Shown here piece after piece: positions 1 to 15,579 of a stretch of 64,000 nucleotides of DNA. A model generated the notes under the pieces. It was given only the letters and a program-made list of their open reading frames with translations, was not told the DNA's origin and searched no databases. The DNA comes from Acidobacteriota bacterium. GTDB lineage: Bacteria > Acidobacteriota > Vicinamibacteria > Vicinamibacterales > CAVVIG01. The DNA is taken from assembly GCA_003222395.1 (NCBI GenBank), contig QHWB01000050.1, forward strand, positions 1 to 64,000, written 5' to 3'. Position numbers and translations under genes: made by a program. The first letter of the stretch is position 1. Each line of letters starts with the position of its first letter.

Positions 1-498
1 CTGCCGATCGAACGCCAGTTCAGACCCGAACGACAACGGGCGCCAGGAAATCGACCCGCAGAGGTTCGTATCGAGTATTCGCCGGTTCGCCCTGTTTCAG
101 CTGCCAGCCTGACGTTCGTCTCAGAAGATCGGTTGGCTGAATTCCGTACGATGCAGGCTCGATCCTTCGATTTGCAGAGATTGATTCGGCTGTGCGAAGA
201 GGCAAATGTCGCGTACAGTGAGGGCTGCTATCACGCCACTGCCATGTTAGTGCGCGGGTTGCTTGACCATGTGCCACCGCTGTTCGGCAAACGGACGTTT
301 ACTGAGGTGGCGAACAATCACGGATCAAGATCCTTCAAAGAGAGCATGCAGCATCTTGAGAACGGCGCGAGAAAGGTTGCGGACGCCCATTTACATACCG
401 CAATTCGCAATCGCGAAACATTGCCGACTGCTCAGCAGGTTGCCTTCGGGCCAGAGGTCGACGTCTTGCTGGCAGAAATCATTCGAATCTTGGGCTAA
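1..498 (+). CDS. Conserved hypothetical protein, 5' end outside window
   Basis: The frame is open from base 1 to the stop at 496-498, so the gene probably begins to the left. The last ~110 residues form a helical domain (FDLQRLIRLCEEAN, LVRGLLDHVPPLF, FKESMQHLENGARKVAD). From memory this resembles a C-terminal domain common in uncharacterised proteins of soil bacteria and plasmids, but I cannot name a function. An internal TTG at 133 and an ATG at 151 are weaker alternative starts. It ends eight bases before the first attC, as expected for the gene of a cassette. Confidence 0.6.
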   Translation: MPIERQFRPERQRAPGNRPAEVRIEYSPVRPVSAASLTFVSEDRLAEFRTMQARSFDLQRLIRLCEEANVAYSEGCYHATAMLVRGLLDHVPPLFGKRTFTEVANNHGSRSFKESMQHLENGARKVADAHLHTAIRNRETLPTAQQVAFGPEVDVLLAEIIRILG

Positions 499-505
499 AT
501 GCGCG

Positions 506-574
506 GTCTAACTTGCGCTGGAGCCGTCGGCGCCGGCGGACGATGCGCGCCGCGGCTCAGCGCAGACGTTAGCC
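506..574 (+). other. attC site 1
   Basis: Left core GTCTAAC (506-512), right core GTTAGCC (568-574). The inner arms GGAGCCGTCGGCGC and GCGCCGCGGCTC pair, with one extra T in the left arm, so this is the standard orientation for the array. Confidence 0.88.
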
Positions 575-585
575 AGACACACAAC

Positions 586-1602
586 ATGAACAGAGGCCTT
601 CGCTGCCGACACGCATTCGAATTCGTGTGTGTGCATGCGAATGGCGACGTTGTGTGTAGCATTATTGATGGCCGCGGGGACTTCGTGATTGGAAGTGCCC
701 ATCAGCAGTCTCTCAGCGATATCTTTGCCGGCGCGCGCGCGCAGGAGTTGCGGCGTCTCGTGCTCTCGACTGCCGACTCCTATTGCCCCGCCATCAGCAA
801 GAAATGTCCGCTCAAGAGCATACCGTTCGAACCGGGTGAGGACCCGCCGGTGCGTATACGGTTCCTTGCAATCGAGCCGACGACCGCGTGTGACCTACGC
901 TGCCTAACCTGTCCAGTGAGGGATTTTACAGGCGACGTAACTTGGCGCGATGCGTACCGCGACGGTGGAGTGTCCTTTCTGCTGTGGGACGGCCTCAGGC
1001 GCTCGAAGCAACATGCGGCGGATGGGGTCCGTCGCGCGATCCCGCTCCTCAATGGCAGAACGCCCGCCCAGCTCGGACGCCGCGGCGCGTCGCTACTACG
1101 TGGTCGTATCGCGAAATCGAGAACGGGAACCCTCCCGATTGACGTGCTGAAACGGGTGGTGACCGAGGCCGGCCCAGGAGTCGAACGGGTAGATTTGGAT
1201 GGAATGCAAGTCCGTGAACAGGTTGAATCGACCATCGTTCGAGAGCGGCTACTCGATTGGGTGATCTTTTCCATTGATGGCTGCGACGCAGATAGTTACC
1301 GCCGATACCGGATTCGCGGAAGTTTCGAGGTGGCGTTCGCTAATCTCGTTCGTTTCCATCGCAAAGCCATGGGAACCGGAATTCGCGTGATCTGGCAGTA
1401 CGTCGTGTTTCGCTGGAACGACCGAGACGACCAGTTCAGGCGCGCGATTGCCCTGGCCGAGGAGCTTGGCATTCAGATCTGCTTCGACTTTGCTCACACA
1501 TGGGGTCGGTCGCGTCGCAGCCCAGACGATTTGCGGTATCTGACGCCTTACCTCAAGCCTTTTACGGCGCTCCCTGGAGAGCTTCGGCAGGACGGATGGT
1601 GA
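586..1602 (+). CDS. Radical SAM protein with N-terminal SPASM-like cysteines
   Basis: A 338-residue protein with the radical SAM cluster motif CDLRCLTC (Cys102, Cys106, Cys109; CX3CX2C), expected to bind a 4Fe-4S cluster and cleave S-adenosylmethionine. Upstream Cys7, 15, 24, 67 and 74 resemble a SPASM/twitch-type accessory cluster placed at the N-terminus. The ATG at 586 lies 11 bases after attC 1, the usual place for a cassette gene. After VERVDLD (about residue 208) the protein jumps to a segment leading to WVIFSIDG. The NYGEP-type strand and helix normally found between them seem missing, so there may be an in-frame internal deletion of some 30-40 residues. Substrate unknown, and activity is doubtful if the deletion is real. 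Confidence 0.75.
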   Translation: MNRGLRCRHAFEFVCVHANGDVVCSIIDGRGDFVIGSAHQQSLSDIFAGARAQELRRLVLSTADSYCPAISKKCPLKSIPFEPGEDPPVRIRFLAIEPTTACDLRCLTCPVRDFTGDVTWRDAYRDGGVSFLLWDGLRRSKQHAADGVRRAIPLLNGRTPAQLGRRGASLLRGRIAKSRTGTLPIDVLKRVVTEAGPGVERVDLDGMQVREQVESTIVRERLLDWVIFSIDGCDADSYRRYRIRGSFEVAFANLVRFHRKAMGTGIRVIWQYVVFRWNDRDDQFRRAIALAEELGIQICFDFAHTWGRSRRSPDDLRYLTPYLKPFTALPGELRQDGW

Positions 1603-1998
1603 TGTATGTGCGAACGAGAAGCGACTAAAGCCATCCACCGAGGTCATCCAACGATGATGTCTACCCGATGCCACCAAGTACGCCATGGGCGCCCTCAAGC
1701 ATTCACTGCACAGTTGCTTCTTCTGCTATCAGCAGCGAACGACTACGTTGGAGGAGGAAGTCGCCTTCTTCAACCGGCGCCTGGGAGCGAGTCGGACCCT
1801 GGTGGATCTGCTGTCGCTGCGCCGACAGTACCGTCGGTCGTTCGCGTTTGTGATCCGATGCCTGCCTACCCTCGCGCGGCTCCACTTGCGGACCGCCCGG
1901 GATAACTGGTTCCCGCGCGCCGCATGACGCGGTGCTATCGTGCTCGGTTGCACAGAGCGAAGGTAGTCGGGCGGTATGATTCCGTGGACACTTATGCC
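1603..1998 (+). other. Cassette tail without a confident gene
   Basis: About 400 bases between the radical SAM stop and attC 2. An ATG frame at 1685-1927 (80 residues) contains a plausible segment (TLEEEVAFFNRRLGASR), but it has no visible ribosome site and competes with overlapping frames. I do not call it a gene. Confidence 0.3.
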
Positions 1999-2081
1999 GC
2001 CCAACCACGCGCTGGAGCCGTCGCGGCCGCCATCAGTGCTATCCTGTCGCCGAGCCGCGCGGCTCAGCGCGAGCGTTGGGC
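1999..2081 (+). other. attC site 2
   Basis: Left core GCCCAAC (1999-2005) and right core GTTGGGC (2075-2081) are perfect complements. Inner arms GGAGCCGTCGCGGC and GCCGCGCGGCTC pair, and the extended loop holds about 20 bases. Confidence 0.85.
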
Positions 2082-2119
2082 AGACCAACAGCGTCGAAGA
2101 GGTCAACTCCAGCTGGAAC

Positions 2120-2722
2120 ATGACCGACCTACGCATAGTTTCGGCGCAAGAGAGTGATCTCGGACAATACATCGATCTGCTTGAGGAAATCGCCGCCTGG
2201 CTCGAAGCTCGCGGAATCAAGCAGTGGCGCCCTGGGAGTTTTCGTCTTTCTGCGAACTACTACGCGGAATCGATAAGCCAGGGCGAAGTACAACTGGCCT
2301 TCGTCGGCGGCGAGTTAATCGGCACCCTTCGACTCTTGTTGCGAGATCCAATCGTCTGGCCGGAGGTCATCGAAAATGATGCTGTGTACGTGTACCACCT
2401 CGCGGTCAGACGCACATGGGGCGACCAAGGCTTGAGTGCTCAGATGTTGGAATGGGCGGCCAATCGGGCCACGTCTCTTGGCAAACGCTACGTGCGCCTC
2501 GATTGCATGGCGGACAATCAATTCTTGGTTGAATACTACGTCAGGGCTGGGTTCGACGAGCGTGGTGAAATCGACGCGCCGTTTCCCGCTCCGGTCGGAA
2601 CTTTGCGCCTCAGGCGCTACGAGAAACGACTTCGGATTCAGCCGACGGCTGCCCAACAGGCGCTTGCAGCCGTCGGCGCTCGGCGCGATCATGAAGCGCC
2701 GCGGCTGAAGCGCGGACGTTAG
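2120..2722 (+). CDS. GNAT family N-acetyltransferase
   Basis: A 200-residue GNAT acetyltransferase, expected to move acetyl from acetyl-CoA to an amine. The fold is seen in VYHLAVRRTWGDQGLSAQML (core beta4 strand and acetyl-CoA loop, in a variant with RTWGDQG) and in RLDCMADNQFLVEYYVRAGF (beta5 and the C-terminal helix). The ATG at 2120 gives MTDLRIVSAQESD, a typical GNAT opening. The frame then runs right through attC 3: its last ~24 residues are attC-encoded and the stop TAG lies inside the right core GTTAGGC. Substrate unknown; a resistance role is possible but unsupported. Confidence 0.8.
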   Translation: MTDLRIVSAQESDLGQYIDLLEEIAAWLEARGIKQWRPGSFRLSANYYAESISQGEVQLAFVGGELIGTLRLLLRDPIVWPEVIENDAVYVYHLAVRRTWGDQGLSAQMLEWAANRATSLGKRYVRLDCMADNQFLVEYYVRAGFDERGEIDAPFPAPVGTLRLRRYEKRLRIQPTAAQQALAAVGARRDHEAPRLKRGR

Positions 2723-2724
2723 GC
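2651..2724 (+). other. attC site 3, overlapping the acetyltransferase 3' end
   Basis: GCCCAAC (2651-2657) to GTTAGGC (2718-2724), with inner arms GCAGCCGTCGGCGC and GCGCCGCGGCTG. The upstream acetyltransferase frame reads through it and stops at TAG within the right core. Confidence 0.88.
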
Positions 2725-2739
2725 GGACAATTTAGAACG

Positions 2740-3219
2740 ATGTCGATACCATTTGGCGCGATGCCAGCAGATCGGCAGCTCGCAACGCTGGGATGTGGCG
2801 TCGCTGCAATCATTCTCGGTGCAACCACGCCGCGAGTCGCGGCGCTCGTGAACGGTCGAACATTGTTCGTCAGCGTGTCGCCGATGCCGTGGTGGTTTTC
2901 GGCTCTGTTCGCCGCGTTGGCGCTTGCGGTGGCTGTCCGCGTCACGGGATGGGTGCTGCGCATTGCTCTCGTCGCGTTTGCGGTCAATCGCGTGTTGTCG
3001 ATCGCCTCTGTTGCGCACGCCTTGTCGATCGGTCCCGTCACTGTTACAGCGTTGAATGAGCTATTCGGGTGTTCGTTGATGGTCGCCGCATGGCCGCACG
3101 CCGGCCGCCGCGCAAGAATCGCAGCGGTAGTTCTGTTCGCATGCTTCGCGGCGCTGGCCATTTGGCTCGGTAGCGGTCGCTCGAGCGTGATCGCATCGGT
3201 GTACGCCGCAGCCGCCTAA
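2740..3219 (+). CDS. Small integral membrane protein (cassette)
   Basis: A 159-residue hydrophobic protein beginning 16 bases after attC 3. About four membrane segments are visible, around LATLGCGVAAIILGA, WWFSALFAALALAVAV, VLRIALVAFAVNRVLSIASV and IAAVVLFACFAALAIWL. No motif gives a function. Its stop codon TAA is part of the left core GCCTAAC of attC 4. Confidence 0.6.
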   Translation: MSIPFGAMPADRQLATLGCGVAAIILGATTPRVAALVNGRTLFVSVSPMPWWFSALFAALALAVAVRVTGWVLRIALVAFAVNRVLSIASVAHALSIGPVTVTALNELFGCSLMVAAWPHAGRRARIAAVVLFACFAALAIWLGSGRSSVIASVYAAAA

Positions 3220-3310
3220 CCACCGCTGCAGCCGACGAGCGGCACTGCAGCGTTGAATCAGATTCGGAAAATCGGAGTGCCGCTCGCGGCTGAGCGGCAG
3301 GACGTTAGGC
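3214..3310 (+). other. attC site 4
   Basis: GCCTAAC (3214-3220) to GTTAGGC (3304-3310). Inner arms CAGCCGACGAGCGGCAC and GTGCCGCTCGCGGCTG pair with one extra A on the left. The loop is longer than in its neighbours. Confidence 0.87.
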
Positions 3311-3368
3311 CTCAAGCCCAATTGCGACGACATTTCGGAAAATCTTGGGGCGGGCATAGAATTTCGGA

Positions 3369-3662
3369 GTGACGGTTCGGTTCTACATCGATCCAGCGAC
3401 GGATCAACCCCATATCTACGGCCACTCGGTCGTGGAGGAAGAGGTGGAGGATGTCCTGGCGCGACCGATGGAGGATCGCGCCGGTCGCGACGGCGCACGC
3501 ATCGCCCTCGGTCAAACCGAGGCGGGTCGGTACTTGCGAGTGATCTACGTGTCGGACCCAACGCCGGGCTCCGTGTTCGTCATTACGGCGTACGAACTCG
3601 GCGAGAAGGCTCGGAAAGCCTTGCGGCGGCGCCAGAAGTCTGCGAAACGGAAGAAGCCATGA
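3369..3662 (+). CDS. DUF4258-like toxin of a putative toxin-antitoxin pair
   Basis: A 97-residue protein with a GTG start 59 bases after attC 4. The layout RFYIDPATDQPHIYGHSV, then EEEVEDVLARP, then RYLRVIYV and VFVITAYEL, fits DUF4258/BrnT-like small ribonuclease toxins of the RelE superfamily. The tail is rich in Lys and Arg. It overlaps the next gene by four bases (ATGA), as in a translationally coupled operon. Toxin activity is inferred from fold and context; no catalytic residue was verified. Confidence 0.65.
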   Translation: MTVRFYIDPATDQPHIYGHSVVEEEVEDVLARPMEDRAGRDGARIALGQTEAGRYLRVIYVSDPTPGSVFVITAYELGEKARKALRRRQKSAKRKKP

Positions 3663-3862
3663 AGAAACGCAATCGATTTCCGCCAGGTTGGAACGATGCA
3701 CGAGTGCAACGGGTACTCGATCACTACGAAACGCAGTCCGACGTCGAAGCTGTGGCTGATGACGAGGCGGCGTACCGATCAACAACGACGACGGTGATGA
3801 AGATACCGGTCAAGCTCGTGCCAGCCGTCAGAGCCCTACTGGCGAAACGCCGGGCCAGCTGA
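3659..3862 (+). CDS. Putative antitoxin partner
   Basis: A 67-residue protein overlapping the preceding gene by ATGA. It has a central acidic stretch (DVEAVADDEAAY) and a C-terminal VMKIPVKLVPAVRALLAKR helix. Small acidic proteins in this position usually neutralise a DUF4258/BrnT-type toxin. No DNA-binding motif is evident. Antitoxin role is inferred from gene order. Confidence 0.6.
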   Translation: MKKRNRFPPGWNDARVQRVLDHYETQSDVEAVADDEAAYRSTTTTVMKIPVKLVPAVRALLAKRRAS

Positions 3863-3872
3863 TCGATGTGAG

Positions 3873-3985
3873 GCCTAACATGGCATGCAGCCGACGGCGC
3901 GATGGACGCCTGCGCGCCGCGGCTGATGCCTGACGTTCTGCGGACATTCTTGATAGAGCGTGAAGGTCAGCGCGGGACGTTAGGC
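3873..3985 (+). other. attC site 5 (composite)
   Basis: Left core GCCTAAC (3873-3879). The usual palindrome (GCAGCCGACGGCGCG / CGCGCCGCGGCTG) is followed by a degenerate right core GTTCTGC near 3933, then about 45 extra bases and an intact GTTAGGC (3979-3985). This looks like one attC joined to the right end of another. Confidence 0.78.
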
Positions 3986-3997
3986 CTCACAACGGCG

Positions 3998-4438
3998 ATG
4001 CACTTCTTTCATCGAGAATTGAAATACGACATGGACGACGAGTGGTGGGCTCAGGCCGGCATGATCGGTTTTCTCCCGGTCCGATGTTCATTCCGCGTCG
4101 ACCCATCGGAATGTGCGGGTCTTACGGTAGTCGACGTCCCGATCGATGATGTGGAGCCTCTAAACAGATCGCTGAGTCATGGCATCTTCAACGACGACGG
4201 TCCTAAACGGACGGCGAGGGACCGTGTCGTGAGGATCCTCCAAGGCTTTCGTAATGACGCACCAATGCCGCCGATCGAACTTCTCAGAGCGCCGGTAGAC
4301 AGTCAGTATCGCTTCACGCTCTATCATGGCGCCCATCGCTTTTACTGCGCTGTCGCTGCCGGCTTTTCGCATGTGCCAGCGGTCGACGTCACGAGTCGAC
4401 CTGCCGTGCATCTTGATCTCGACACCGATGACGCGTGA
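3998..4438 (+). CDS. ParB-like-domain hypothetical cassette protein
   Basis: A 146-residue soluble protein whose ATG lies 12 bases after attC 5. The order VPIDDVEPLNRS, RVVRILQGFRNDAPMPPIEL, YRFTLYHGAHRFYCAVAAGF, HVPAV recalls ParB/Srx-fold proteins that choose a parameter list and then a G-x-HR-x-x-A motif (here GAHRFYCAVAAG). The same layout recurs in hypothetical cassette proteins. Function unknown; nuclease activity is not shown. Confidence 0.6.
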   Translation: MHFFHRELKYDMDDEWWAQAGMIGFLPVRCSFRVDPSECAGLTVVDVPIDDVEPLNRSLSHGIFNDDGPKRTARDRVVRILQGFRNDAPMPPIELLRAPVDSQYRFTLYHGAHRFYCAVAAGFSHVPAVDVTSRPAVHLDLDTDDA

Positions 4439-4439
4439 G

Positions 4440-4533
4440 GCCTAACATGCGCTGCACCCGACGAGCCGCTCGCGATATCTTCGGTCGTCGTGACGTCTTC
4501 TGCGCGGCTCGCGGGTGAGCGCAGGCGTTAGCG
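4440..4533 (+). other. attC site 6
   Basis: GCCTAAC (4440-4446) to GTTAGCG (4527-4533). Inner arms GCACCCGACGAGCCGC and GCGGCTCGCGGGTG pair with one extra A on the left. The core sequence differs from the others but the geometry is the same. Confidence 0.82.
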
Positions 4534-4572
4534 AGTCAGTAAGCCTGCTGGAAAGTCGAGGAGATTTTTCCC

Positions 4573-5079
4573 ATGGAGCCGATTCAGCGCATCAAACGTT
4601 TAGAACGTCGAGTGTCAGTACTCACAGCTTGTCTTATCTTCACGGCTGCCGCCTTCGCGATTGTCGGCCTCCGTGCCCAGCCCGCGGTCACCGAAAGCTT
4701 GCGCGTCCGCCAGATTACAGTCGTCGATGCAAAAGGGACTGAGCGTCTCTGGATCGGCGCGCCGGTTCCGGATCCCATCTTTCAGGGCAAGCGAGTGAGC
4801 CGTTCAGGGCCGGTGTCTGGTGTGGTGCTGCTCGATGCGAACGGCAACGAACGAAGTGGGTACGTGACGTCCGATCGAACGGGCGAAGTGTTTGTGAGTC
4901 TCGATAGCGAGAAGACCCAGGAGGCACTCTTTCTCGTCAATGCAGGTGGAGGTGGACACGTCTCGATCTACGACGCGAATCGCAATCAAGCTCGAATCGG
5001 CGTATTGAACGGTCGACCGACTTTGGTCCTCGAAGAGAGAGGCCGTGTCGCGTTCGAACAACCCCAAACGACGAAATAA
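4573..5079 (+). CDS. Signal-anchored beta-rich hypothetical protein
   Basis: A 168-residue protein. A charged N-terminus (MEPIQRIKRLERRVS) is followed by one membrane segment (VLTACLIFTAAAFAIVGL), so it is probably anchored with the rest outside the cytoplasm. The remainder holds repeated short beta units with D-x-K/N-G-x-E-R turns (VVDAKGTERLWIGAP, LLDANGNERSGYVT, IYDANRNQARIGV). No catalytic motif is seen. It occupies the cassette between attC 6 and attC 7. Confidence 0.62.
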   Translation: MEPIQRIKRLERRVSVLTACLIFTAAAFAIVGLRAQPAVTESLRVRQITVVDAKGTERLWIGAPVPDPIFQGKRVSRSGPVSGVVLLDANGNERSGYVTSDRTGEVFVSLDSEKTQEALFLVNAGGGGHVSIYDANRNQARIGVLNGRPTLVLEERGRVAFEQPQTTK

Positions 5080-5095
5080 TGTCACTTCGTCAGCT

Positions 5096-5185
5096 CGCTA
5101 ACCGCGATTGGAGCCGGCGACGACGAGCGCCGTAGTGCGGTTCTGGCGATCGAAGTCGCCGCGGCTCAATCGCATTCCGTTAGAC
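5096..5185 (+). other. attC site 7
   Basis: CGCTAAC (5096-5102) to GTTAGAC (5179-5185). The inner arms GGAGCCGGCGAC and GTCGCCGCGGCTC are less regular than in other sites. Confidence 0.8.
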
Positions 5186-5203
5186 GGACGGAACAAACAT
5201 CTA

Positions 5204-5906
5204 ATGAAGACGGAGAGCGTTCGGGAGCATTTCCGAATCCAAGTGCCTGATTACCAGGGTCTCATGCGCCGGTTGATTCCTTTCTACGACAACCAGCGGG
5301 ACGTCATGCTTGCGTTAATTCCGTTCGACCGAGGGGTGTCGCTGCGAGTCCTTGATTTGGGCTGTGGGCCTGGCTTGATGGCCGCCCGGATTCTTGCTGA
5401 ATTCCCGCACGCGCAACTGACGCTGTTCGACCTCACCGCGGAGATGATCGAGGCGTGTCAGTCTCGGCTCGAGGGCACCGATCGCATCGTGTACCAGGTC
5501 GGCGATTTTCGAACCGCTGATTTCGGGACGGGGTACGATCTCATCATCGCCTCGTTGTCTCTGCATCATTTGATGCCGTCGGAAGGGCCAGCCTTTGCCA
5601 AGCGTGCGTTTCAAAGCCTGGGACCAGGCGGACATCTGATCACCGCGGGGGTGATCGTGGACGAGTCGCTGGAGGTTCGTGAAAGGCTGTGAAAGGCAGT
5701 ACGAGCTGTGGCGGCGCTTCATGATAGCGCAGGGCGAAGACGGGAATGCTTGGTATCAGAAGCATCTGGCCAAGGATCATCCCGTCGAGATTTCCACGTG
5801 GGTTGGTACGCTAATGAGCCGCGCGCCGCGGCGACGCGATCACACCGACCGACTGGCGCGACGGCTCCAAGCGGTGGTTAGACGGCGATCCGGTGCCCGC
5901 CAATGA
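5204..5906 (+). pseudogene. Class I SAM methyltransferase, frameshifted and attC-truncated
   Basis: Begins at ATG 5204 with the SAM-binding motif VLDLGCGPG (residues 49-57), an acidic strand end (LTLFDLTAEM) and LIIASLSLHHL, as in class I methyltransferases. The frame stops at 5692. Coding resumes in another frame (QYELWRRFMIAQGEDGNAWY). The cause is visible: a 10-base direct duplication, gtgaaaggct/gtgaaaggca at 5679-5698. Removing one copy restores RERQYELWRRF. The end is also abnormal: after STWVGTLM the frame runs into the attC-like site and stops at 5906, losing the usual last segment. Substrate unknown; probably inactive. Confidence 0.75.
5809..5883 (-). other. attC-like site 8, inverted
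   Basis: CGCTAAT (5809-5815) to GTTAGAC (5877-5883) on the + strand. Here the arm order is reversed: GAGCCGCGCGCC lies left and GGCGCGACGGCTCC right, so the extra base is on the right arm, opposite to the other standard sites. On the - strand it reads like a normal attC. Confidence 0.65.
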
Positions 5907-5978
5907 TCGCGAAGTTCAGATACCGCCAAAAGCACCCCACCGATGCAAAGCCCGCTTCTGAAAGCGGAGACGTTAGAC
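5884..5978 (+). other. Short intervening fragment ending in an attC right core
   Basis: About 95 bases with no gene, ending in GTTAGAC (5972-5978), the same seven bases that end the previous site. A small hairpin CCGCTTCTGAAAGCGG precedes it. It looks like a cassette remnant that kept only the right end of an attC. Confidence 0.45.
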
Positions 5979-6052
5979 GGTGCAGAAGTTTCCGGGCGAG
6001 TGGTTTCTCGGTTGGCAAAACTGGTGGACGGCCAAGGAGGGAGAGGGTTCAC

Positions 6053-6748
6053 GTGCTCCGCTTGCCTTGTCTTTTACTCAGCGTCGTCATGTTCTCGTCG
6101 CGCCTCGGCGTACAAATCCATGCTCAAGCAGCTCCCGATACGGGTCTCTATGCAGTGTCATATGTCGAAGTCATGCCATCGGGCAGGGCGGCGACAATCG
6201 CAGCGCTTAGGCAGTATCGCGATACGAGCCGCCACGAGGACGGCTACGTTCGCGTCGAGCTGCTCGAGCAGGTTGGCCGGCTCGGTCATTTCGCGATTAT
6301 TGAAACGTGGAAGGATCAGAAGGTCTTCGAGGCCCATGGAATGGCCGCGCATGTGAAGCAGCTTCGGGGCGCGCTCCAGTCGATTCGTGTGAGCGACTAC
6401 GACCAGCGCTTGTACAAAACTCTCACCGTCGCTTCAGCGACTGCCGCAGGAAACAGCCAAGCAGTCCATGTCGTTGCGCATGTCGACACGGTTGGCGGCG
6501 CCCAGGCCGACGCGCCGGGGCTACTCAAACGATTGGCTGCGGCCAGCCGCAAGGAACGAGGCTGTTTGCGGTTCGACGTTCTGCAGCACGCGATGCGCGC
6601 GAATCACTTCACAATCATCGAGATGTGGGAGAATCAGAACGCGCTCGATGCGCACGCTGCCGCCCCGCACACGAAACAGTACCGCGACGAGTTGCAGCCG
6701 ATGTCCGGTAGCCCTCTCGATGAACGCTTATACGAAGCCGTTGAATAG
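6053..6748 (+). CDS. Secreted protein with two antibiotic-biosynthesis-monooxygenase (ABM) domains
   Basis: A 231-residue protein. The GTG at 6053 is chosen because AAGGAGGGAG lies just upstream and the N-terminus becomes a signal peptide (VLRLPCLLLSVVMFSS ... IHAQA). Two ferredoxin-like ABM repeats follow, near residues 30-105 and 140-215, each with the pattern ...G(Y/C)xRxxxLxQ...HFxIIExWxxQxxxxxHxxxxHxKQxRxxL. ABM proteins often act as small quinol oxygenases or heme-degrading enzymes, but the substrate cannot be read from sequence. It fills the cassette before attC 9. Confidence 0.75.
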   Translation: MLRLPCLLLSVVMFSSRLGVQIHAQAAPDTGLYAVSYVEVMPSGRAATIAALRQYRDTSRHEDGYVRVELLEQVGRLGHFAIIETWKDQKVFEAHGMAAHVKQLRGALQSIRVSDYDQRLYKTLTVASATAAGNSQAVHVVAHVDTVGGAQADAPGLLKRLAAASRKERGCLRFDVLQHAMRANHFTIIEMWENQNALDAHAAAPHTKQYRDELQPMSGSPLDERLYEAVE

Positions 6749-6785
6749 CCCATCGCCCGGTTCCTCATGGGATGATCTCAGGGCC

Positions 6786-6858
6786 GTCTAACTTCGGTTT
6801 GCAGCCGTCGGCGGTGGATTCGATCATGAGTCGCCGCGGCTGAAACCGAGCGTTAGGC
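6786..6858 (+). other. attC site 9
   Basis: GTCTAAC (6786-6792) to GTTAGGC (6852-6858). Inner arms GCAGCCGTCGGCG and CGCCGCGGCTG are in the standard orientation. Confidence 0.88.
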
Positions 6859-6896
6859 GTCTTCCCTTCGTCAGGAGTCTGGAATCGAATTTCTAG

Positions 6897-7299
6897 TTGA
6901 ACTCCTGGTGCAGCTCGTTCTTGAGGTTGTCGGCCAGGTGTTTTGTTCGAACTCGTTGCGGCGTATGGCTGGGAGTCGCTGAAGGACTCCGTGCGCCTGG
7001 AGCGCGAATCGACGGCAGTCTTAGCGGGGACGGGTCATCTTCTGCTGCGCGTGTGTGTTGGTATCCTCAGTCTGCTAATCGTCCCCCGGCGACTGGCGCC
7101 GCACTCACCGTTACCGGGGCTGAGTCTCGTGTTGAGCCCGATCGGCACCGGAATCACCACGCACTGGATCGGCGAGTTCTGGCATGAGCGTGGTCGGGAC
7201 CGGCCAGTCCTGTTTACATTTCGAGCGGGCGCGATTTTCGCGTTCGGAATGGCGCTGGTGCGTTTCGTCTACGGCGAACTGGAATGGCGTCCCTTCTAG
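6897..7299 (+). pseudogene. Small membrane protein, probable N-terminal frameshift
   Basis: The clear part is in the frame ending at 7299: FELVAAYGWESLKDSVRLE, then LLLRVCVGILSLLIVP, a G-rich loop (LSPIGTGITTHWIGEF) and FRAGAIFAFGMALVRFV, suggesting two or three membrane segments. Just upstream, another frame reads LVQLVLEVVGQV, which would join smoothly if one T of the run near 6940 were removed. A one-base insertion is therefore likely. No function is recognisable. No attC follows directly; decayed IS sequence begins instead. Confidence 0.5.
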
Positions 7300-7577
7300 C
7301 CAGCAAGACGCGTAACTGCCGTATATGGACTCCTCCCGGATGTCAGCAAGGAAGTAAACGATCGTCGCATTTGATCGAAATCGGATGCAGTCGTATATCC
7401 GAACTGTGATGAAGCGTCGTACGCTTCTGGCCATCATGGGCATCCGCGCACCGAGGGCCAATCGCTGAACAGCGACCTTCGCGGCCAAGGCTGTTATCGG
7501 CCTGGGTTAGTGCCGGTCCGACCGGTCACGCCATGATCATGTATCCTCGCCGAGCATCTCGCTGGTATGTCGTGCCA
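7300..7577. other. Nothing recognisable
   Basis: No convincing gene, RNA or attC between the last cassette ORF and the IS110 remnant. The attC expected at the end of the last cassette is absent here. Confidence 0.5.
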
Positions 7578-8240
7578 TCAGGCGGCCACGCGTGGCTCGA
7601 CTCGAAAGTCAACATCGTGGTGCCAAACTGCCCAAATCATTCGTGCGAGCTTGTTCGCGACGGCAATGGCTGCTTTGTTGTGTCCGCGTCGGGCCGCAAC
7701 ACTGGTGGCCCAGCGCTGAAAAGCCGTGACGCGTTGTGGTGTACGCGCGACTGTTCGTTGCGCGGTCAGTAGCACGGCGCGTGCTCCATGCGTGAGCAAG
7801 CATCGCAAATAGACGTCGCCCCGTTTGCTGATGCCTCCCAAGTACCGACGCCCGCCGGTCGACGACTCACGCGGCGTGAGGCTGAGCCACTGGCAAACTG
7901 CCGGCCGCGCCGAAACGCGTGAATGTGCCCGACGCTCGCGACGAGCGCCGTCGACGTCAGCACGCCGACCCCGGGGACCTGTTGCAGGCGCCGCGCGACG
8001 GGATGCTCGCGTGCAATTGTGGCGAGCTCGTGATCGATCGCGGCGATGCGCGCGTCGAGCGCACGGACTTCGTCGAGCAGCAGCCGGACGGCATGGCGCA
8101 CGACCCCGGGCAGATCCACCGCCGCATCGTCGAGCAACGCCGGAATGCGCTGCAACGCGGTGCCCGCCCCGGCACCAAGCGGCAGACCAAACTCGCGCAG
8201 GACGCCACGCATCACGTTGATCCGAGCCGTCCGCGTCGCC
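7578..8240 (-). pseudogene. IS110-family transposase remnant
   Basis: Reading right to left: RTARINVMRGVLREFG, a helical linker, then RLQQVPGVGVLTSTALVASVG (transposase_20-like helix-hairpin-helix) in one frame. After a frameshift near 7880 it continues as GGISKRGDVYLRCLLTHGAR and HNKAAIAVANKLARMIWAVW, the conserved C-terminus of IS110/IS1111 transposases. The N-terminal DEDD catalytic domain is missing, because the gene is joined at about 8240 to a recombinase fragment. Not functional. Confidence 0.82.
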
Positions 8241-8532
8241 TGTGCTCGCGGGCCGGGCGCACGAACCGGAGCGTCGTCCACTCCCGGCGAAGCGTCTGCT
8301 CGAAGAAGAACCGAATCCCGCACAACGCGATCGTCGCCGTCGCGCGCGCGACCTTCTTCTCGTTGGCCAGGTACAGAAAGTACCGGCGCAGATCCTCCTC
8401 GGTCAGTTGGTCGGGGCTCCGATGATAGTGCTCCGCCAGTTGCCGGACGCCGCGCGCGTAGCACTCCTGCGTTCTTGCGGAGAACCCCCGGAGTTGCATA
8501 TCCTCGAGCATCCGTTGACGTAAGGGCGTCAT
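8241..8532 (-). pseudogene. Tyrosine recombinase N-terminal fragment
   Basis: Starts at ATG 8532 (minus) behind AAGGAG. MTPLRQRMLEDMQLRGFSAR, then TQECYARGVRQLAEHY and RSPDQLTEEDLRRYFLYL form the SAM-like core-binding domain of a tyrosine recombinase. The wording matches XerC/D-like recombinases that accompany IS91-type elements more than integron IntI. After about 90 residues it fuses into the IS110 remnant, so the catalytic R-H-R-Y domain is absent. Confidence 0.75.
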
Positions 8533-8669
8533 GCGGCCTCTCCTTCTGGGAGCGGGAGGTAAAGGGACCGCTCCCGGGAGGAGATCTTCAGGCCACCGTC
8601 CCGACAATGTGGGAGACACTCAACGGTCAGTAGCGACGTTCTGATCTATCCGCCGCAGGCGGATTTAGT

Positions 8670-8722
8670 CCAACCTGGCGCTGCAGCCGACGGCGGCACG
8701 ACGCGGTCGCCGCCGCGGCTGG
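8670..8722 (+). other. Partial attC, right end lost
   Basis: GTCCAAC (8670-8676) and both inner arms (GCAGCCGACGGCGGC / GCCGCCGCGGCTG) are present, but no GTTRRRY core follows; unrelated sequence begins after about 8722. A remnant of the array beside the IS cluster. Confidence 0.65.
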
Positions 8723-8780
8723 CCTGCCGCGCGGCGTCGAAGGCCGCTCGGCCGCGGCTAATGACACGCGATCGGTCTTC

Positions 8781-9176
8781 TTGGCGGCGGCGCGTCGGCT
8801 GGTGCCGCGCTCGATCTGGACGCCGTTCTTCGTGAAACCGGCCACACTGCTCGAGTGGCATCGTCGGCTGGTCGCCAGGCGCTGGACATCTCGTCGCCGA
8901 GTTGGCCGACGGCAGATCGATCGCGAGGTTCGGGCGCTCATTGTGCGGCTCGCCCGCGAGAACCCGCGCTGGGGCTATCAGCGCATTGTGGGCGAACTGA
9001 AAGGCCTGGGTGTGATCGTGTCGGCGTACAACCGACATCGGGCACACCTAAGCATAACCTCACGCCTGCCGGCCGGTCGCTCAGCGATTAAGTCGCACCC
9101 GGACTTGGAAAAGCTGACAGTGGTTCGACGGGATCGTCTCGGCGGCTTGTTGCACGAATATCGGCGTGCCGCGTGA
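8781..9176 (+). pseudogene. DDE (rve-type) transposase with in-frame loss of the catalytic core
   Basis: The 131-residue open frame begins like integrase-core transposases (RSIWTPFFVKPATLLEWHRR, then RALIVRLARENPRWGYQRIV). It jumps after KGLGVIVSA to YNRHRAHLSI and ends TVVRRDRLGGLLHEYRRAA, which is the family's C-terminus. About 200 residues including the DDE triad are gone, yet the frame is intact. Family length is roughly 320-340 residues. It cannot catalyse transposition alone. Confidence 0.75.
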
Positions 9177-9589
9177 GCTGCAACGAATTTACGCACCGTA
9201 GGTTCGCCAATATTCCGATCGCTGTGCAAATCACGTCGCAACACCTCGCGGACTGAACGAAGTGTCGGCCTTGCGACGACGTTGATGACTCGATTGTTCT
9301 TCGAGTGGAGACTCAGAATTGCAAATGGCCAAGCACGGTCGGGCAAATTGATCTCACACTGCCGTCGGTCGCGAAGGCACTGTCGCCCAGTACGAAAAAA
9401 CGCCAGCGCGGACGCCGCGCGGCTGGTTGCAACGGTAGGTGCCGCGGCGGGTCACGGCCGCTGCTCTGGCGCGCTCCTGCCGTCCTGAAGGTGATTTTGG
9501 CCGAGACGGCGCCGACGGACGAGGGCTGGAGCGGACGCCCCCAATCGACGCTCGGCCGGTGAATGGAGGCGCGCGACGCATCGATCGAC
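9177..9589. other. No confident gene between IS remnants
   Basis: About 400 bases with several overlapping short frames, none resembling a known protein. Probably decayed mobile-element sequence. Confidence 0.4.
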
Positions 9590-10154
9590 GGAGCTGGGCG
9601 AAACGACAGGTCAGAGCGGTCGACGACGAAGTCGTCATCGTGCGCATCCGCGAACATCACCGGCGAGATAAGTGTCTGGCCACCGAACTGGTTCGCGAAG
9701 AATGTCCGCCAAGTTTGTGACCGGGTCGTCGGGCAGCGGCGCAGATAGCGCGAGACGGTGCGTTCCGAAATGGTGATTCCGAGCTTCAGTAATTCGCCGT
9801 GGATCCGCGGAGCGCCCCAGAGACAATTCTCAGCGGCCATACGCCGAATCAGATCGCGACAGGTTGAATCGATGCGTGGTCTTCAGGGACGTCGCGAGCG
9901 GCCCGCCAGCTTCGACGTACGCCTCCGCGATGCCAACGATCGACAGTGGCTGGTTGGATAAGCGGCAGCGCTTCCCGCCACCGGGGCCAGAACCAGCGCA
10001 AAAACAGCCAAAACATCCGGTCAGCTGGGCGAAAGCGCTTATTCGAACGAGCGAGGACGCCGAGTTGGCGGCGCAGGGCAAGAGTCTCGAGCAGGAGGTC
10101 TCGACGCGTCGCCCGAGCCGATCGGACCGTTGCACCCGTCCTGATGACGGCTCG
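9590..10154 (-). pseudogene. Integrase-core transposase remnant
   Basis: On the minus strand one frame reads RRDLLLETLALRRQLGVLAR, FRPADRMFWLFLRWFWPRWR, LIQPATVDRWHR. After a frameshift near 9850 another frame reads MAAENCLWGAPRIHGELLKL, ISERTVSRYL, then SPVMFADAHDDD. This is the helix-turn-helix N-terminus and linker of an IS481/IS3-like rve transposase. The catalytic core is unrecognisable. A second, independent decayed copy of the family seen at 8781-9176. Confidence 0.7.
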
Positions 10155-10399
10155 CATCGCCTCGTAGAGTGGCGACCGGTGACGCCAACGTGAATGGATT
10201 TTTGGCCGGACGCAATATTGGCGAGGCACAACCCAGCACCCGGCAGTGCGCGCTTTAGGCTGTCGTACTCTGGCGATTGCAGGACGCGACTGCTCAGGAG
10301 CGTTCGCTGATGAGCGCTCTCGCAACCGCGCGTTTGGCTGAGCAGCGTGGCGGGCGGCGCTGGTTTTGCGTCGGCTTAGCGTTTGGCGTCGGCTTAGCC

Positions 10400-12142
10400 A
10401 TGTTGCGGGTACTCGAACCGGCCGCCCAAGCTCAACTCTCGCAGGCGCGCGAGCTGTTGGCGAGACTGCGCGACACGCTCGCGGAATTCGGCGCCGCGGC
10501 GGAGGATCGCGCCGCCTTGGCTGCGTCGATCCGCCAGCTCGACGAGCTGTTTCTCATCGTCTGCGTTGGCGAATTCAACGCCGGAAAGAGCGCGTTCATC
10601 AATGGCTTGCTCGGGCGATCCGTCGTGGAGGAGGGCGTCACGCCGACCACAGCGCAGATCCAGCTGCTGAAATATGGCAACGTCGTGCAATCGGAAACCG
10701 ATGCCAATGGTCTGCGCATCCTGACCGCGCCGGTGGAGCTGCTTCGCGACGTCCACATCGTCGACACGCCTGGCACCAACGCGATCATCCGCGAGCATGA
10801 ACGCCTTACCACCGACTTTGTTCCGCGATCCGATCTCGTGCTGTTCGTGACGTCCGCCGACCGCCCGTTTACCGAGACCGAACGAATATTCCTGACGGCG
10901 ATTCGCGACTGGGGCAAGAAGATCGTCATCGTCCTGAACAAGATCGATATCTTCAGCAATGCTGCGCAGCTTCAAGAGGTCGTCGACTTCGTCCAGAAGG
11001 CAGCGCGCAATCTGCTCGGCGTCGACGCCGACGTGTTGCCCGTGAGCGCGCGGCTGGCGCTTCGCGCCAAACACGGAGAACCGTCAGTGTGGGCAGCCAG
11101 CGGATTCGAAGCGCTGGAACGGTACTTACAGAACACGCTTGATGCGCGGAACCGGTTTCGATTGAAGCTGGCCAATCCTCTCGGCGTCGGGCTGGCACTC
11201 GGAAACCGATTTGCGACGATCGCCGGGGAGCGTCTGACGGTCCTCCACGACGACCTCGAGCTGCTCGGCGACATCGAGCGGCAGCTGTCCATATACCGCG
11301 ACGACATGAAACGCGGGTTCGAGCTGCGGATCACCGCGGTCGAGAAGGTTCTTGCCGACATGGAAGGACGCGGCGACCGTTTTTTCGAAGAGACGCTTCG
11401 ACTCGGGCGCTTCACCGACCTGCTGAACCGCTCGCGCATTCAGAAGGAATTCGAAGACAAGGTCGTCGCCGATGCCTCGGCTCAGATCGAGCGGCGCGTC
11501 GCGGAACTGATCGACTGGCTTGTCGACCGGGACTTTCGACAGTGGGAGGCGGTCACGCGAAAACTCTCCGAGCGGCATCGCGAGCATGCGTCGCGCGTAC
11601 TCGGTGCTCCTGAAGTGGGCAGCTTTCACCACGACCGTTCCCGCCTGATGGACTCGGTTGGCCGCGAAGCGCAGCGCGTGGTGGATACCTACGACAAACG
11701 TCTGGAAGGCGAGACGATTGCGGACCAGGCGCAAATTGCCGTCGCGGCGGCCGCGGCGGCCGGCGGTGCCGCGGTCGGCCTCGGCACGATCGTGACCATC
11801 GCAGCGTCAACCGCAGCGGCGGACATCACCGGGATCCTGCTCGCCAGCGTCGTGCTGGGCGTTGGATTCCTGATCATCCCCGCCCGACGCCGGCGGGCGA
11901 AGGCGACGCTGCAGGAGAAGATTGTCGCACTCCGGATTCAGCTCTCTACAGCACTCCGAACCGAATTCGAGCGAGCGCAGGAACAGAGCGCGCATCGACT
12001 CAGCGACGCGATTGCGCCCTACGGGCGCTTCGTACGCGCCGAAGAGCAACGCTGGAGGGATGCTCAGCGTACTCTGGCCACTCTTCGGGACCAGATGACG
12101 GGTACGCTTGCCCAGCTCGCACAGCCCGCGGACGCAGCGTGA
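10400..12142 (+). CDS. Dynamin-family GTPase, membrane-anchored
   Basis: A 580-residue GTPase with P-loop GEFNAGKS (residues 57-64), switch threonines in EEGVTPTT, G3 motif DTPGT and G4 motif NKID, as in bacterial dynamin-like proteins. These use GTP to remodel membranes. A long helical region (about 280-460) is followed by two hydrophobic segments (IAVAAAAAAGGAAVGLGTIV and ITGILLASVVLGVGFLIIP) that likely insert in the inner membrane, then a coiled tail. The ATG at 10400 is preferred; an upstream start at 10277 would add residues from a tandem GCGTCGGCTTAGC repeat. It stands alone, without the partner dynamin of many bacterial pairs. Confidence 0.85.
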   Translation: MLRVLEPAAQAQLSQARELLARLRDTLAEFGAAAEDRAALAASIRQLDELFLIVCVGEFNAGKSAFINGLLGRSVVEEGVTPTTAQIQLLKYGNVVQSETDANGLRILTAPVELLRDVHIVDTPGTNAIIREHERLTTDFVPRSDLVLFVTSADRPFTETERIFLTAIRDWGKKIVIVLNKIDIFSNAAQLQEVVDFVQKAARNLLGVDADVLPVSARLALRAKHGEPSVWAASGFEALERYLQNTLDARNRFRLKLANPLGVGLALGNRFATIAGERLTVLHDDLELLGDIERQLSIYRDDMKRGFELRITAVEKVLADMEGRGDRFFEETLRLGRFTDLLNRSRIQKEFEDKVVADASAQIERRVAELIDWLVDRDFRQWEAVTRKLSERHREHASRVLGAPEVGSFHHDRSRLMDSVGREAQRVVDTYDKRLEGETIADQAQIAVAAAAAAGGAAVGLGTIVTIAASTAAADITGILLASVVLGVGFLIIPARRRRAKATLQEKIVALRIQLSTALRTEFERAQEQSAHRLSDAIAPYGRFVRAEEQRWRDAQRTLATLRDQMTGTLAQLAQPADAA

Positions 12143-12236
12143 ACCCACGCGGGTCAGAACGGCGGGCACAGCCGTTTCCCGTCGTAACTCGTCGAGGTGC
12201 CGAACCACGTCTCCCTGTTGGTAATATGCCGGGTCC

Positions 12237-12422
12237 ATGACCTGGCTCGTGTGGCTCGCCCTCGCGGTCATCATTGCCGCCGTCGCTGCCGTCACCGGCA
12301 TGCAGCCCACCGGGGCACGCCCCGTCGCCTCGACGCGCTTGATGGGAATCGCACGCCTGGTGCTTGTGGCCCTCATCATCATCTTCGTCTACTTCGCATG
12401 GCGCGCGCGCACCGGCGGCTGA
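12237..12422 (+). CDS. Small two-segment membrane protein
   Basis: A 61-residue protein with two hydrophobic segments (LVWLALAVIIAAVAAVTGM and LMGIARLVLVALIIIFVYFA) joined by a short polar loop, ending in RARTGG. The composition is typical of a real small membrane protein, and the gene lies 94 bases after the dynamin gene. Function unknown. Confidence 0.55.
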   Translation: MTWLVWLALAVIIAAVAAVTGMQPTGARPVASTRLMGIARLVLVALIIIFVYFAWRARTGG

Positions 12423-12566
12423 ATGGCCCGGGCGCACACCCAGGTCGTCTCTACTTCGTAGATGTAGAGTGGCCGATCTGTCGTCCTTAGGCATTAAAAA
12501 TACGCGACCGGACCAGTCGCGCTGGGCTCGAGGAACGCGATCGCTGTCGTTGGGCAAAGCTGGCAG

Positions 12567-12893
12567 ATGAATACAACGCCGACGATCCGGACAGCTGTCG
12601 CTTTGGTCATCGTGATCGCGGGCGTTGCCGTCATTGGTTTCATCCCGTACAGCCGGTGGAAAGGGACACGCGATCGTGGCGATTTTGAGCGGGCACGCAC
12701 GCCGTTGGTACGGGTTTCAGTCGGCGAACTGCCGCCAGATCGTGAAAGAACGATGACCGTGATCTTGCCAAAGGACCGGCAATGGCAACGGATCGTCAAC
12801 CGACTCGGAAAGCTGACCTCGTGCTGGTCGTTGCAACCGATCCAGCGGCGGTCCACCCGCAAGCCTATTCGGCAACCGAAGCGCGTCTGGTAG
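12567..12893 (+). CDS. Hypothetical protein with N-terminal membrane anchor, possibly broken
   Basis: A 108-residue frame with a good N-terminal membrane segment (TAVALVIVIAGVAVIGFIPY) and a charged exterior part (RWKGTRDRGDFERARTP). After about residue 80 the sequence becomes Arg/Gln/Lys-rich and a neighbouring frame (LVLVVATDPAAVHPQAY) looks more protein-like, so a frameshift near 12800 is possible. No family recognised. Confidence 0.35.
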   Translation: MNTTPTIRTAVALVIVIAGVAVIGFIPYSRWKGTRDRGDFERARTPLVRVSVGELPPDRERTMTVILPKDRQWQRIVNRLGKLTSCWSLQPIQRRSTRKPIRQPKRVW

Positions 12894-13231
12894 CGCATGG
12901 CACACGAAGCGGACGGCCGTTGGAAATCATGCGACAACGGAGCTCCCGTTTGTCTACTCGCCGACGGCCTCGCAAACCGGTACAGGTTTTCTGCGTCCGC
13001 TGACGACATCGTGCAGCTAGGAGTACGTCCGAGTAATCGCCGTGTTAGTCACATCAACTCATGTCCCCGGCCGTTCAAACCTCGTGCTGCGCGCCGACAA
13101 AGTCCGTCGCCGCGCTTGGCGATGTCCGCGACACCTTACCTCCGCGAACGCGTCGACCGCAGACACTAATCGAACCGCGGCCATTGAGAAGGTTCGTACG
13201 CGACGGCCCACATTGACGCTACCGGTCCGCC
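12894..13231. other. Nothing supported
   Basis: Short competing frames only. Possibly the remains of the gene starting at 12567. Confidence 0.4.
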
Positions 13232-14143
13232 ATGCTTATTAGGCCACCTGCGGATATTCCCTCGTCCGAGATCACACCGAAGGGCCTCTACATGCGGCGC
13301 CGGGAATTTCTGGGCGCGCTCGTCGCGATCGGGGACTCGACGACAAGCTGACGACCACGGACAAGCTCGTTACCGCCACCGACAGGCTCACGCCGCGGCA
13401 GGCCGTCCCGTCGTACTGCAACTTCTACGAATTCGGATCGGCCAAGAGCGACGCCGTTCAAAACGCCGCTGCATTCAAGCCGAAGCCATGGTCCGTGGCC
13501 GTCGAAGGACTGTGTGGCAAGCCCGGCACGTACACATTAGAAGATGTCCTGAAGCCGCACGCCCTCGAGGAGCGCGTCTACCGAATGCGGTGCGTCGAAG
13601 GCTGGTCGATGGTCATCCCGTGGGACGGCTTTCCGCTCGGCGATTTCCTCAAGCGATTTCAGCCGGCGGCAAACGCCAAGTACGTCGAGTTCACCAGCAT
13701 TTACCGCCCGCAGGAGATGGCGGGCCAGCGCCGCCGCTTCCCAGCGCTTCTTCCGTGGCCCTACCGAGAAGGACTACGGATGGACGAGGCCATGCACCCA
13801 CTCGCCATTCTGGCGGTCGGCCTGTACGGCGAGACGCTGCTCAACCAGAATGGCGCGCCGCTTCGGCCCGGTCGTGCCGTGGAAGTACGGCTTCAAAGGC
13901 ATCAAGTCGATCGTGAAAATCCGGTTCGTGGAGAAGCAGCCGCTAAACTCATTGCAGGAAGCTAACGCGAACTAGTACGGCTTCTACGCGAACGTGAATC
14001 CGGAGGTCCCGACGCCGTCCTACAGCCAAGCGACCGAGCGCCGCCTCGGCGAATTCTTCATGCGGCGTACGTTGATGTTCAACGGCTACGCCGATCAGGT
14101 CTCATTGCTGTATGTCAGCATGAACCTGCGCAAGTTCTACTGA
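13232..14143 (+). pseudogene. msrP: Decayed msrP (YedY-like molybdopterin sulfoxide reductase)
   Basis: Starts [20 protein letters not shown] then [12 protein letters not shown], the typical MsrP N-terminus leading into a Tat signal, but hits a stop near 13349. Homology resumes as NFYEFG, then [37 protein letters not shown] (with the molybdenum-binding Cys), [13 protein letters not shown] and [17 protein letters not shown]. Another frameshift after NQNGAPLR leads to the frame [18 protein letters not shown], then an in-frame [13 protein letters not shown], and the normal end [17 protein letters not shown]. At least two frameshifts and a nonsense codon: a pseudogene. The family repairs oxidised periplasmic methionine with heme partner MsrQ, which is absent here. 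Confidence 0.85.
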
Positions 14144-14734
14144 TCACAACTTGAGCTGCACACCACGCTTCGGGGCGCGCGTGCCAAGCAGCAACGAGAA
14201 CGCACTGCCGCCAACGTCGGTCGAACGACGTCTAGGTACAACGCGTGTAACACCCTACTGCGAGATTGGTCCCCTGTAACACCAGCATTTATCGATGGTG
14301 ACGTGCGGCCTATGAAGCCGGTGTCCAGTAACCACCAGGCGACTGATCGCTACCTAAGTCGGCGCAGGCGATTTCGACGTGCGTGTACACCACGTCTGGA
14401 GTCGACGCCATGTGCGGTGTTCATCGCCGTTTTGTCGCTATGCGAACAGCATCAGACGATAGATGCGGCCGATCCCGCCCGAGAGGCGCCGCTGAGCGGG
14501 CGAGTGCATCACGGCTTCGCTCGGCGAGTCGGACCTTGCGTCCAAGCAGTTGCTTCGCCTGAGTGCGTGGATCCGAGTCACGCAGTCGCAGGTCTTCTTC
14601 ACAAACCAGGGCTGGATCAGACGGCGGTGATGCAATAATCTCCCATTTCGCTGGATCCAAGTGTCCGTCAGGACGCTGACGTGTGAAGCCGGCTAACAGC
14701 GCCTGAGGGCGACAACATGTTCAGGAGGAAGACA
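14144..14734. other. About 590 bases without a supported gene
   Basis: Contains two nearby copies of TGTAACACC (14245-14285), as sometimes seen at insertion-sequence ends, but no transposase. Nothing else recognised. Confidence 0.4.
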
Positions 14735-15394
14735 ATGAAAAACACTGCACTGAAAGTCTTGCTCACGGCGGCGGTTCTGATTCCTGTGGCGGTCTACGCC
14801 CAGCCCAGGCCGGGAAACCCGACGACCGCTACCGTCATCACCAAGGCTGAGATCGACAAGATCAGCGCCACGGAACAATCTCAGCGGACCCGTGATGAGA
14901 ATGCCAAGGTTGTCGATATCGGCGACGGCTGGAGCATGGAGTTGGGCATCATTCACCGCGCCTCCACTCGGAACCCGCCGCCCGCGCCTGCCGCCGGAGC
15001 GGGGAATGCGCAGGCAGCGGCCCAAACCATCCCGTGTGGAGAACGAATGGCAAATCCGCCGGCGGATGCAATTCCGGGCGCCATTACGCATGATAATCAG
15101 ACCGAAGGCTATTACATCGTCTCCGGCGGCGGCACGGCGTTCATTGATGGCCATGTCGTCAATGGCCGGCACAGCACGGCCAACCCCGACGGCGGACCGA
15201 ACGGCCCGGGCTGCGGCGGCTTGGCGGTTGGCTCACGCAAAATCGAGTTGAAAGTCGGAGACGTGCTGATCGTTCCGCCGGGCGTAATACATGGCTGGGC
15301 CGATATTCCCGATCATGTGGACTATCTCAGCTTCCGTCCGTCGCATGGCGTGATGAAGAACGGCTGGGTGAACCCCACGATCGCCTCGAAGTAA
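14735..15394 (+). CDS. Secreted cupin-domain protein
   Basis: A 219-residue protein. ATG 14735 is preferred over 14717 because AGGAGG sits seven bases before it. The signal peptide (KNTALKVLLTAAVLIPVAVYA) ends near residue 22. The C-terminal half is a cupin barrel: ITHDNQTEGYYIVSGGGTAFIDG is motif-1-like with few metal ligands, and GDVLIVPPGVIHGWADIPDHVDYLSF is motif 2 with its His. Binding or enzymatic role unknown. It lies just before attC 10, so it may be the gene of that cassette. Confidence 0.72.
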   Translation: MKNTALKVLLTAAVLIPVAVYAQPRPGNPTTATVITKAEIDKISATEQSQRTRDENAKVVDIGDGWSMELGIIHRASTRNPPPAPAAGAGNAQAAAQTIPCGERMANPPADAIPGAITHDNQTEGYYIVSGGGTAFIDGHVVNGRHSTANPDGGPNGPGCGGLAVGSRKIELKVGDVLIVPPGVIHGWADIPDHVDYLSFRPSHGVMKNGWVNPTIASK

Positions 15395-15481
15395 CGCTTT
15401 CAACGTTCTGTCTCAGAGCGGACCGCAATGCGCCGGCGGCGGTCAGGCCTGGCAAAGAGGATCGCGCGGCATCCCCGCGGC

Positions 15482-15544: not shown

Positions 15545-15579
15545 CGCTGAATCAGCAGCTCATTGTTTCGGAACCTGGA

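Follow-up and report, generated by a model that had tools for sequence, protein, structure and literature searches.

The window examined here comprises the first 64,000 nucleotides of contig QHWB01000050.1 (C53 below, 171,639 bases) in the draft Acidobacteriota genome GCA_003222395.1 and starts at base 1 of that contig. Judging from its sequence, the segment 1-17,409 very probably belongs to an aging array of integron cassettes in the chromosome. It contains 11 full attC sites in one and the same (plus) orientation, and a search with the integron integrase model TIGR02249 found no integrase gene (intI) on the whole 171.6-kb contig. Integrons in Acidobacteriota, clusters of attC sites lacking integron-integrases (CALINs) and intI genes pointing in the same direction as their cassettes have all been described previously. 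The added interest lies in the surrounding genome, which holds one intact integrase, one decayed integrase and several separate cassette clusters.

Each unit of the array pairs an attC site with a plus-strand gene in front of it; one unit has two overlapping genes instead. An earlier note on this DNA, made from the letters alone, had counted nine attC sites between 1 and 7300 with plus-strand open reading frames (ORFs) between them. In ten of the 11 inter-site intervals the longest ORF runs along the plus strand (the exception is 3311-3941). Eight of the nine sites are full plus-strand sites, the ninth is truncated and inverted, and three further full sites carry the array to 17,409. Leaving aside one 8.6-kb stretch, the intervals measure 0.57-1.67 kb, the first being cut by the contig start. 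The maximum attC spacing of 4 kb given in a passage of PMC8352920 holds within 506-6858 and within 15482-17409. Between these two parts, over 8.6 kb, genes for a dynamin-like GTPase and a cupin accompany pieces of two recombination enzymes, an IS110-type transposase and an IS91-type recombinase.

As Rfam at its gathering thresholds matched nothing across the window, two covariance models were built. The first, R1, was derived from 11 aligned attC sites, nine from the window and two from contig C106 of the same genome. The second, R2, contains no window sequence and was built from 24 R1 matches in other genomes, located in eight of 15 scanned intI loci, whose titles name Acidobacteria (3), Candidatus Rokuibacteriota, Candidatus Krumholzibacteriota, Candidatus Omnitrophota, Actinomycetota and Halothiobacillus. 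A covariance search had been proposed as the check on the attC call, and the recovery of all 11 full sites by both models excludes the outcome that no attC structure is present. On the plus strand, ten of these sites score between 54.8 and 79.2 bits with R1, and the site at 15482 scores 29.5 bits. R1 also matched fragments at 8683 (plus) and 5815 (minus), gave seven hits that shadow full sites on the reverse strand, and had two weak matches to the right of the array at 39882 (20.8 bits) and 61152 (23.7 bits). R2 gave 16 matches in the window: the 11 full sites (E 9.4e-15 to 3.7e-8), three shadows on the reverse strand, the partial site at 8683 and a weak match to the inverted site at 5806-5883. 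It did not recover 39882 or 61152 and had no match right of 17.4 kb at E <= 0.5.

The first eight full sites lie at 506-574 (R1 68.9 bits; R2 E 5.4e-13), 1999-2081 (R2 E 9.4e-15), 2651-2724 (7.3e-14), 3214-3310 (4.7e-12), 3873-3941 (8.5e-14), 4440-4533 (5.1e-13), 5096-5185 (1.2e-8) and 6786-6858 (4.4e-14). The fifth of these, which belongs to repeat family D7, has a broken R' box (GTTCTGC), and inspection of the sequence reveals a second R'-like end past it, at 3972-3989. The last part of the array comprises a short and degenerate site at 15482-15544 (3.7e-8), a site at 16172-16243 (1.3e-13) and the final site at 17344-17409 (1.7e-13). Among the incomplete sites, the inverted one spans 5815-5869 on the minus strand by R1 (24 bits, model positions 15-66 of 81) and 5806-5883 by R2 (16.8 bits, E 0.051), while the plus-strand match at 8683-8721 is the inner part of an attC without R boxes (R2 E 8.7e-5, model positions 16-50 of 66).

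The sites read as palindromes in which RYYYAAC and GTTRRRY flank a core rich in G and C. Sites of the attC type carry R boxes of exactly this form together with characteristic unpaired positions; in the window sites the R'' and R' boxes pair, as do L'' and L', and the unpaired positions stand where this layout places them. The core had been described as nearly constant, and AGCCGNCGGCG / CGCCGCGGCT indeed fits many sites; several others carry compensated variants such as GGAGCC/GGCTC and GCACCC/GGGTG, an argument for base pairing in addition to shared ancestry. Across the 11 aligned sites, the covariation score was 0.431 against 0.130 (standard deviation 0.022) after shuffling, with 0 of 500 shuffles as high, and both sides had changed in 13 of the 26 pairs of the structure. 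Paired cells amounted to 93.0%, compared with 76.7% in shuffles and 29.5-43.1% with the structure slid, a comparison that favours the unshifted structure because it was written from the familiar layout and the alignment and was fitted to the same sequences. It is predicted that these sites would be recombined by IntI as folded bottom strands.

Several features suggest decay of the array and not active use. The R' box at 3873 is broken, the sites at 5815 and 8683 are truncated, a SPASM-domain gene has lost 96 bases and the attC site that follows its relative, and remnants of insertion sequences (IS) lie at 7.6-8.6 kb. Together with a possible frameshift in a methyltransferase gene, the broken sites and IS remnants point to an old, little-used array.

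The integrases of this genome were sought with TIGR02249, which gave 14 matches in the whole assembly: one full, one broken and the rest weaker. The weaker ones are typical of tyrosine recombinases in general, and 14 control genomes have such matches too, none of them over the cut-off. On C53 itself there are two, at 8239-8514 (44.4 bits) and 166386-166490 (23.4 bits), in agreement with the earlier observation that no intI is linked to the array. The intact gene lies at 133715-134656 of contig C18 and scores 441.9 bits against a cut-off of 265. Over residues 9-321 its product can be aligned to the IntI structure 2a3v (4.3e-84), and the Arg, Lys, His-x-x-Arg, His and Tyr stretches, which we take to hold the catalytic residues, are conserved. 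The decayed gene, at 9772-10369 of C106, is spread over two frames, with about the first third of the model unmatched and the last part frame-shifted. On both contigs the attC sites lie downstream of intI and share its strand (C18: 135323 and 136866; C106: 11304-13110). The sequence GTTGGGC at C18:134873-134879 is a putative core of the attI site of the C18 integrase, so that intI and a candidate attI stand beside the array on C18; no such complete integron is found on C53.

Further attC sites are scattered over the genome. At E <= 1, R1 gave 32 matches, and 28 of these exceeded 42 bits: ten on C53, six on C47, four on C106, three on C64, two on C18, and one each on C105, C92 and C10, these last three lying at most 7 kb from a contig end. 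Of the remaining four matches, one is a reverse-strand shadow, two are the fragments at 8683 and 5815, and the last is C106:120446 (20.1 bits). Because 150 candidates were scored per genome in the genome-wide R1 searches, all such counts are lower bounds, and direct scans raise C47 to nine sites, one of them by R2 only. At their very starts, C47 and C64 share 68 bases in reverse-complement orientation, which have no other match in the assembly (E <= 0.001); from this unique end overlap, C64 and C47 would join into one cluster of 12 attC sites. TIGR02249 has no match on C64 or C47, and this cluster is a true CALIN. Since the clusters on C18, C106 and C64-C47 continue on both sides, C53 represents at least a fourth cassette place. 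One cassette is common to C106 (locus L014, 11912-12497) and C47 (locus L053, 4167-4756), with 90% identity over 597 bases and cassette-like borders.

Whether the window array is a CALIN or has its integrase to the left of base 1 was left undecided by the earlier note, and both alternatives stand, as the contig starts at window base 1. That the array is a true CALIN, whose integrase was lost or which was seeded away from its own site by an integrase encoded elsewhere, is the reading we regard as somewhat probable. It is favoured by the presence in the same genome of the 12-site C64-C47 cluster, by the decay of the C106 intI and by the signs of decay in the window array itself, and it is weakened by the fact that the left end of the array is hidden by the contig start. 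We consider it rather unlikely that the array was cut off from a complete integron, whose own intact intI would lie just left of base 1, on unassembled DNA. The contig does begin within a cassette ORF, several genomes of the family have intI near a contig end, and a passage of PMC9024848 describes draft assemblies splitting integrons in this way and warns of the false CALINs that they produce. On the other side, the whole assembly, 99.26% complete, has one intact and one decayed intI, both internal to other contigs and with attC downstream. The first 150 bases of C53 match other parts of the assembly over at most 33 bases. A possible continuation of the end of C10 into the start of C53 was dismissed: the two ends show no overlap, and the ORF left open at the end of C10 lies on the minus strand.

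The minus-strand fragment at 8212-8619 was rejected as a decayed intI belonging to the array, a reading that we hold to be very improbable. TIGR02249 is its best NCBIfam match, though at 46.8 bits it remains far under the cut-off of 265; Pfam finds in it N-terminal SAM-like domains only, and the C18 IntI has no tblastn match in the window at 1e-5. Of 367 plasmid relatives, the 12 listed include eight with an integrase or tyrosine recombinase annotation and four with none at that place, and in the one plasmid neighbourhood that was opened an IS91 family transposase adjoins the recombinase. The fragment is the N-terminal part of a tyrosine recombinase of the kind associated with IS91 transposases and stands outside the array. 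An IS110-type transposase fragment (7766-8464) abuts it, minus strand, and the stretch 7657-8006 is about 91% identical to one at the end of contig C103. Lastly, that the palindromes are a non-integron repeat resembling attC, such as repetitive extragenic palindromic (REP)-like elements or terminators, would account for intergenic GC-rich hairpins and is a very improbable reading, against which stand the R boxes and unpaired positions of the attC type, the clustering, the single orientation of the 11 full sites, the association with intI across the family and the cassettes that separate places share as units.

Against reading 1-17,409 as one aging chromosomal array, several points have to be set. 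The assembly is a draft, and the contig may have been wrongly binned. The 8.6 kb between 6858 and 15482 exceeds the 4-kb rule, so that the part at 15.5-17.4 kb may count as a second cluster. The sites that entered R2 were chosen by R1, which makes R2 independent in sequence and not in method, and seven of its 24 sites come from a single locus, L062, in a genome (G018) of the same family as the window genome. Inspected by eye, the attC sequences show no grouping by integrase lineage. In the comparison with a genome of another genus (G017), the attC before the shared SPASM cassette is weak (16.7 bits, E 0.012), and the identity of that cassette, about 90%, falls between that of an rpoB stretch (543 of 582 bases) and that of a neighbouring stretch (81%).

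That comparison concerns the ORF at 583-1602, whose searches at E <= 1e-8 within the family returned a close relative in G017 and distant matches in further genomes. The DNA homology with G017 spans 520, inside the preceding attC, to 1651; over the cassette (577-1651), 969 of 1075 aligned bases are identical. In G017 a good attC match (10069) follows 8 bases past the end of the homology, and none of the window flanks 1-505, 1652-1998 and 2082-2650 matches the G017 stretch; the shared segment has cassette-like borders. The window copy lacks both this following attC and 96 in-frame bases, within which the G017 copy carries what is presumably a GEP-type motif; the window ORF is probably a damaged gene. 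Recent horizontal transfer of the cassette had initially been inferred and was not borne out by rpoB. Third codon positions differ in 65 of 334 codons of the cassette (19.5%) and in 34 of 194 codons of partial rpoB (17.5%) between the two genomes, and two aligned pieces of the DNA around rpoB show 87% and 81% identity. As the divergence of the cassette is about that of rpoB, no recent transfer is claimed.

Two integrase lineages occur in the window genome: the C18 IntI and the C106 piece, the latter filling half of the tree columns, fall in different parts of one clade of inverted integrases, that is, of those whose genes point toward their attC sites. For this analysis 99 IntI rows were labelled, 22 as inverted (including two identical sequences, and L004 and L014, which were labelled by hand), 29 as classic and one as odd, while 47 had no R2 match entered. 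The tree holds 98 rows, L161 being left out, and on it the labels inverted and classic require two changes each, against about 17 in shuffles. The three closest relatives with readable orientation (L146, L156 and L059) also have intI directed toward attC. A further IntI lineage of the family (L152, L153, L154 and L160) sits on a long branch (1.26) and shows the classic divergent orientation in the two members that can be read. An attempt to assign the window array to one IntI lineage through its attC sites failed, as these do not sort by lineage. With two lineages in the genome and no such sorting, the suggestion that the array was built by one resident integrase gains no support; the proposed Acidobacteria affiliation does hold, the IntI of G018 being identical to that of QHWF01000814.1, Acidobacteria bacterium isolate gp6 AA50.

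The family was sampled through 27 genomes including the window genome, with TIGR02249 at E <= 1e-50 and R1 at E <= 0.001. TIGR02249 matched 13 of the 27, in 12 of them over the cut-off, and R1 found attC in at least 21. Sites were present in all 13 genomes with a TIGR02249 match, among which the window genome, the source of R1, is counted, and in 8 of the 14 without (six have neither; Fisher one-sided p = 0.010). With these frequencies, cassette stores distributed over several places could be common in this Acidobacteriota family.

Mechanistically, the likely agent at the attC sites of the window array is the C18 IntI, the only intact one found in the genome, which would act in trans, or else an integrase to the left of base 1, lost or unassembled. 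Given at least four separate clusters and one intact, same-direction integrase, cassettes would spread and be reshuffled in trans between distant places of the genome, a notion that we put forward only tentatively and hold to be doubtful. Like a CALIN, a type of cluster described with its possible origins in parts of PMC8618304 and PMC9024848, the window array has at least two attC sites with ORFs and no intI on its contig; it differs in that the contig start truncates it on the left, and the absence of intI holds for the contig. A passage of PMC8352920 describes an inverted-IntI sub-clade from soil and freshwater, which the C18 intI and the C106 remnant resemble in pointing toward their attC; here two such lineages occur in one Acidobacteriota genome, and the arrangement does not apply to the window array, which is without intI. 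The same-direction arrangement of intI is also reported for Treponema integrons in a part of PMC3607928. Acidobacteriota appear among the integron-bearing phyla in an excerpt of PMC8618304, and an attC model for Acidobacteria exists according to the passage of PMC8352920 (Ghaly et al., 2021); the window sites are likened to that group through the common phylum and through having, like it, attC sites with a shared core. For one Acidobacteriota family, the analysis yields a supported collection of attC sites and of integrases. Within one genome, an integrase-free array can be compared with both an intact and a decayed integrase, which makes the origin of CALINs testable as intI loss, off-site insertion or rearrangement.

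The cassette genes listed here all lie on the plus strand. The first ORF (1-498) is truncated by the contig start and has no family; the same lack of a family applies to those at 2740-3219, 3998-4438, 4573-5079, 15580-16206 and 16297-17136, and among the 27 family genomes the one at 4573-5079 has matches at E <= 1e-8 confined to its own genome. The SPASM-domain, radical-SAM-like ORF at 583-1602 matches PF13186 (27 bits, cut-off 21.5), and its matches to radical-SAM NCBIfam models are far under the cut-offs. It is followed by a GNAT acetyltransferase ORF at 2120-2722 (PF00583, 9.1e-11 on 2120-2680). The ORF at 3369-3662 is DUF4258-like (PF14076, 9.7e-5, 23 bits, under the cut-off of 25) and is possibly the toxin half of a pair, the pairing being a guess; its possible partner would be the 67-residue ORF that overlaps it at 3659-3862 in the ORF table. 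An S-adenosylmethionine-dependent methyltransferase is encoded at 5204-5692 (PF13649, 4.5e-18) and, from the ORF table, may continue in another frame past about 5690, while the ORF at 5903-6748 has a monooxygenase-like ABM domain (PF03992, 3.3e-26 on 6053-6748). Ten window ORFs were submitted to PADLOC, with 0 matches. Between the two parts of the array lies the dynamin-like GTPase gene (10277-12142, PF00350), which is not obviously a cassette. The last part is flanked by cupin-like genes at 14717-15394 and 17474-18481, the second of which scores under the Pfam cut-off.

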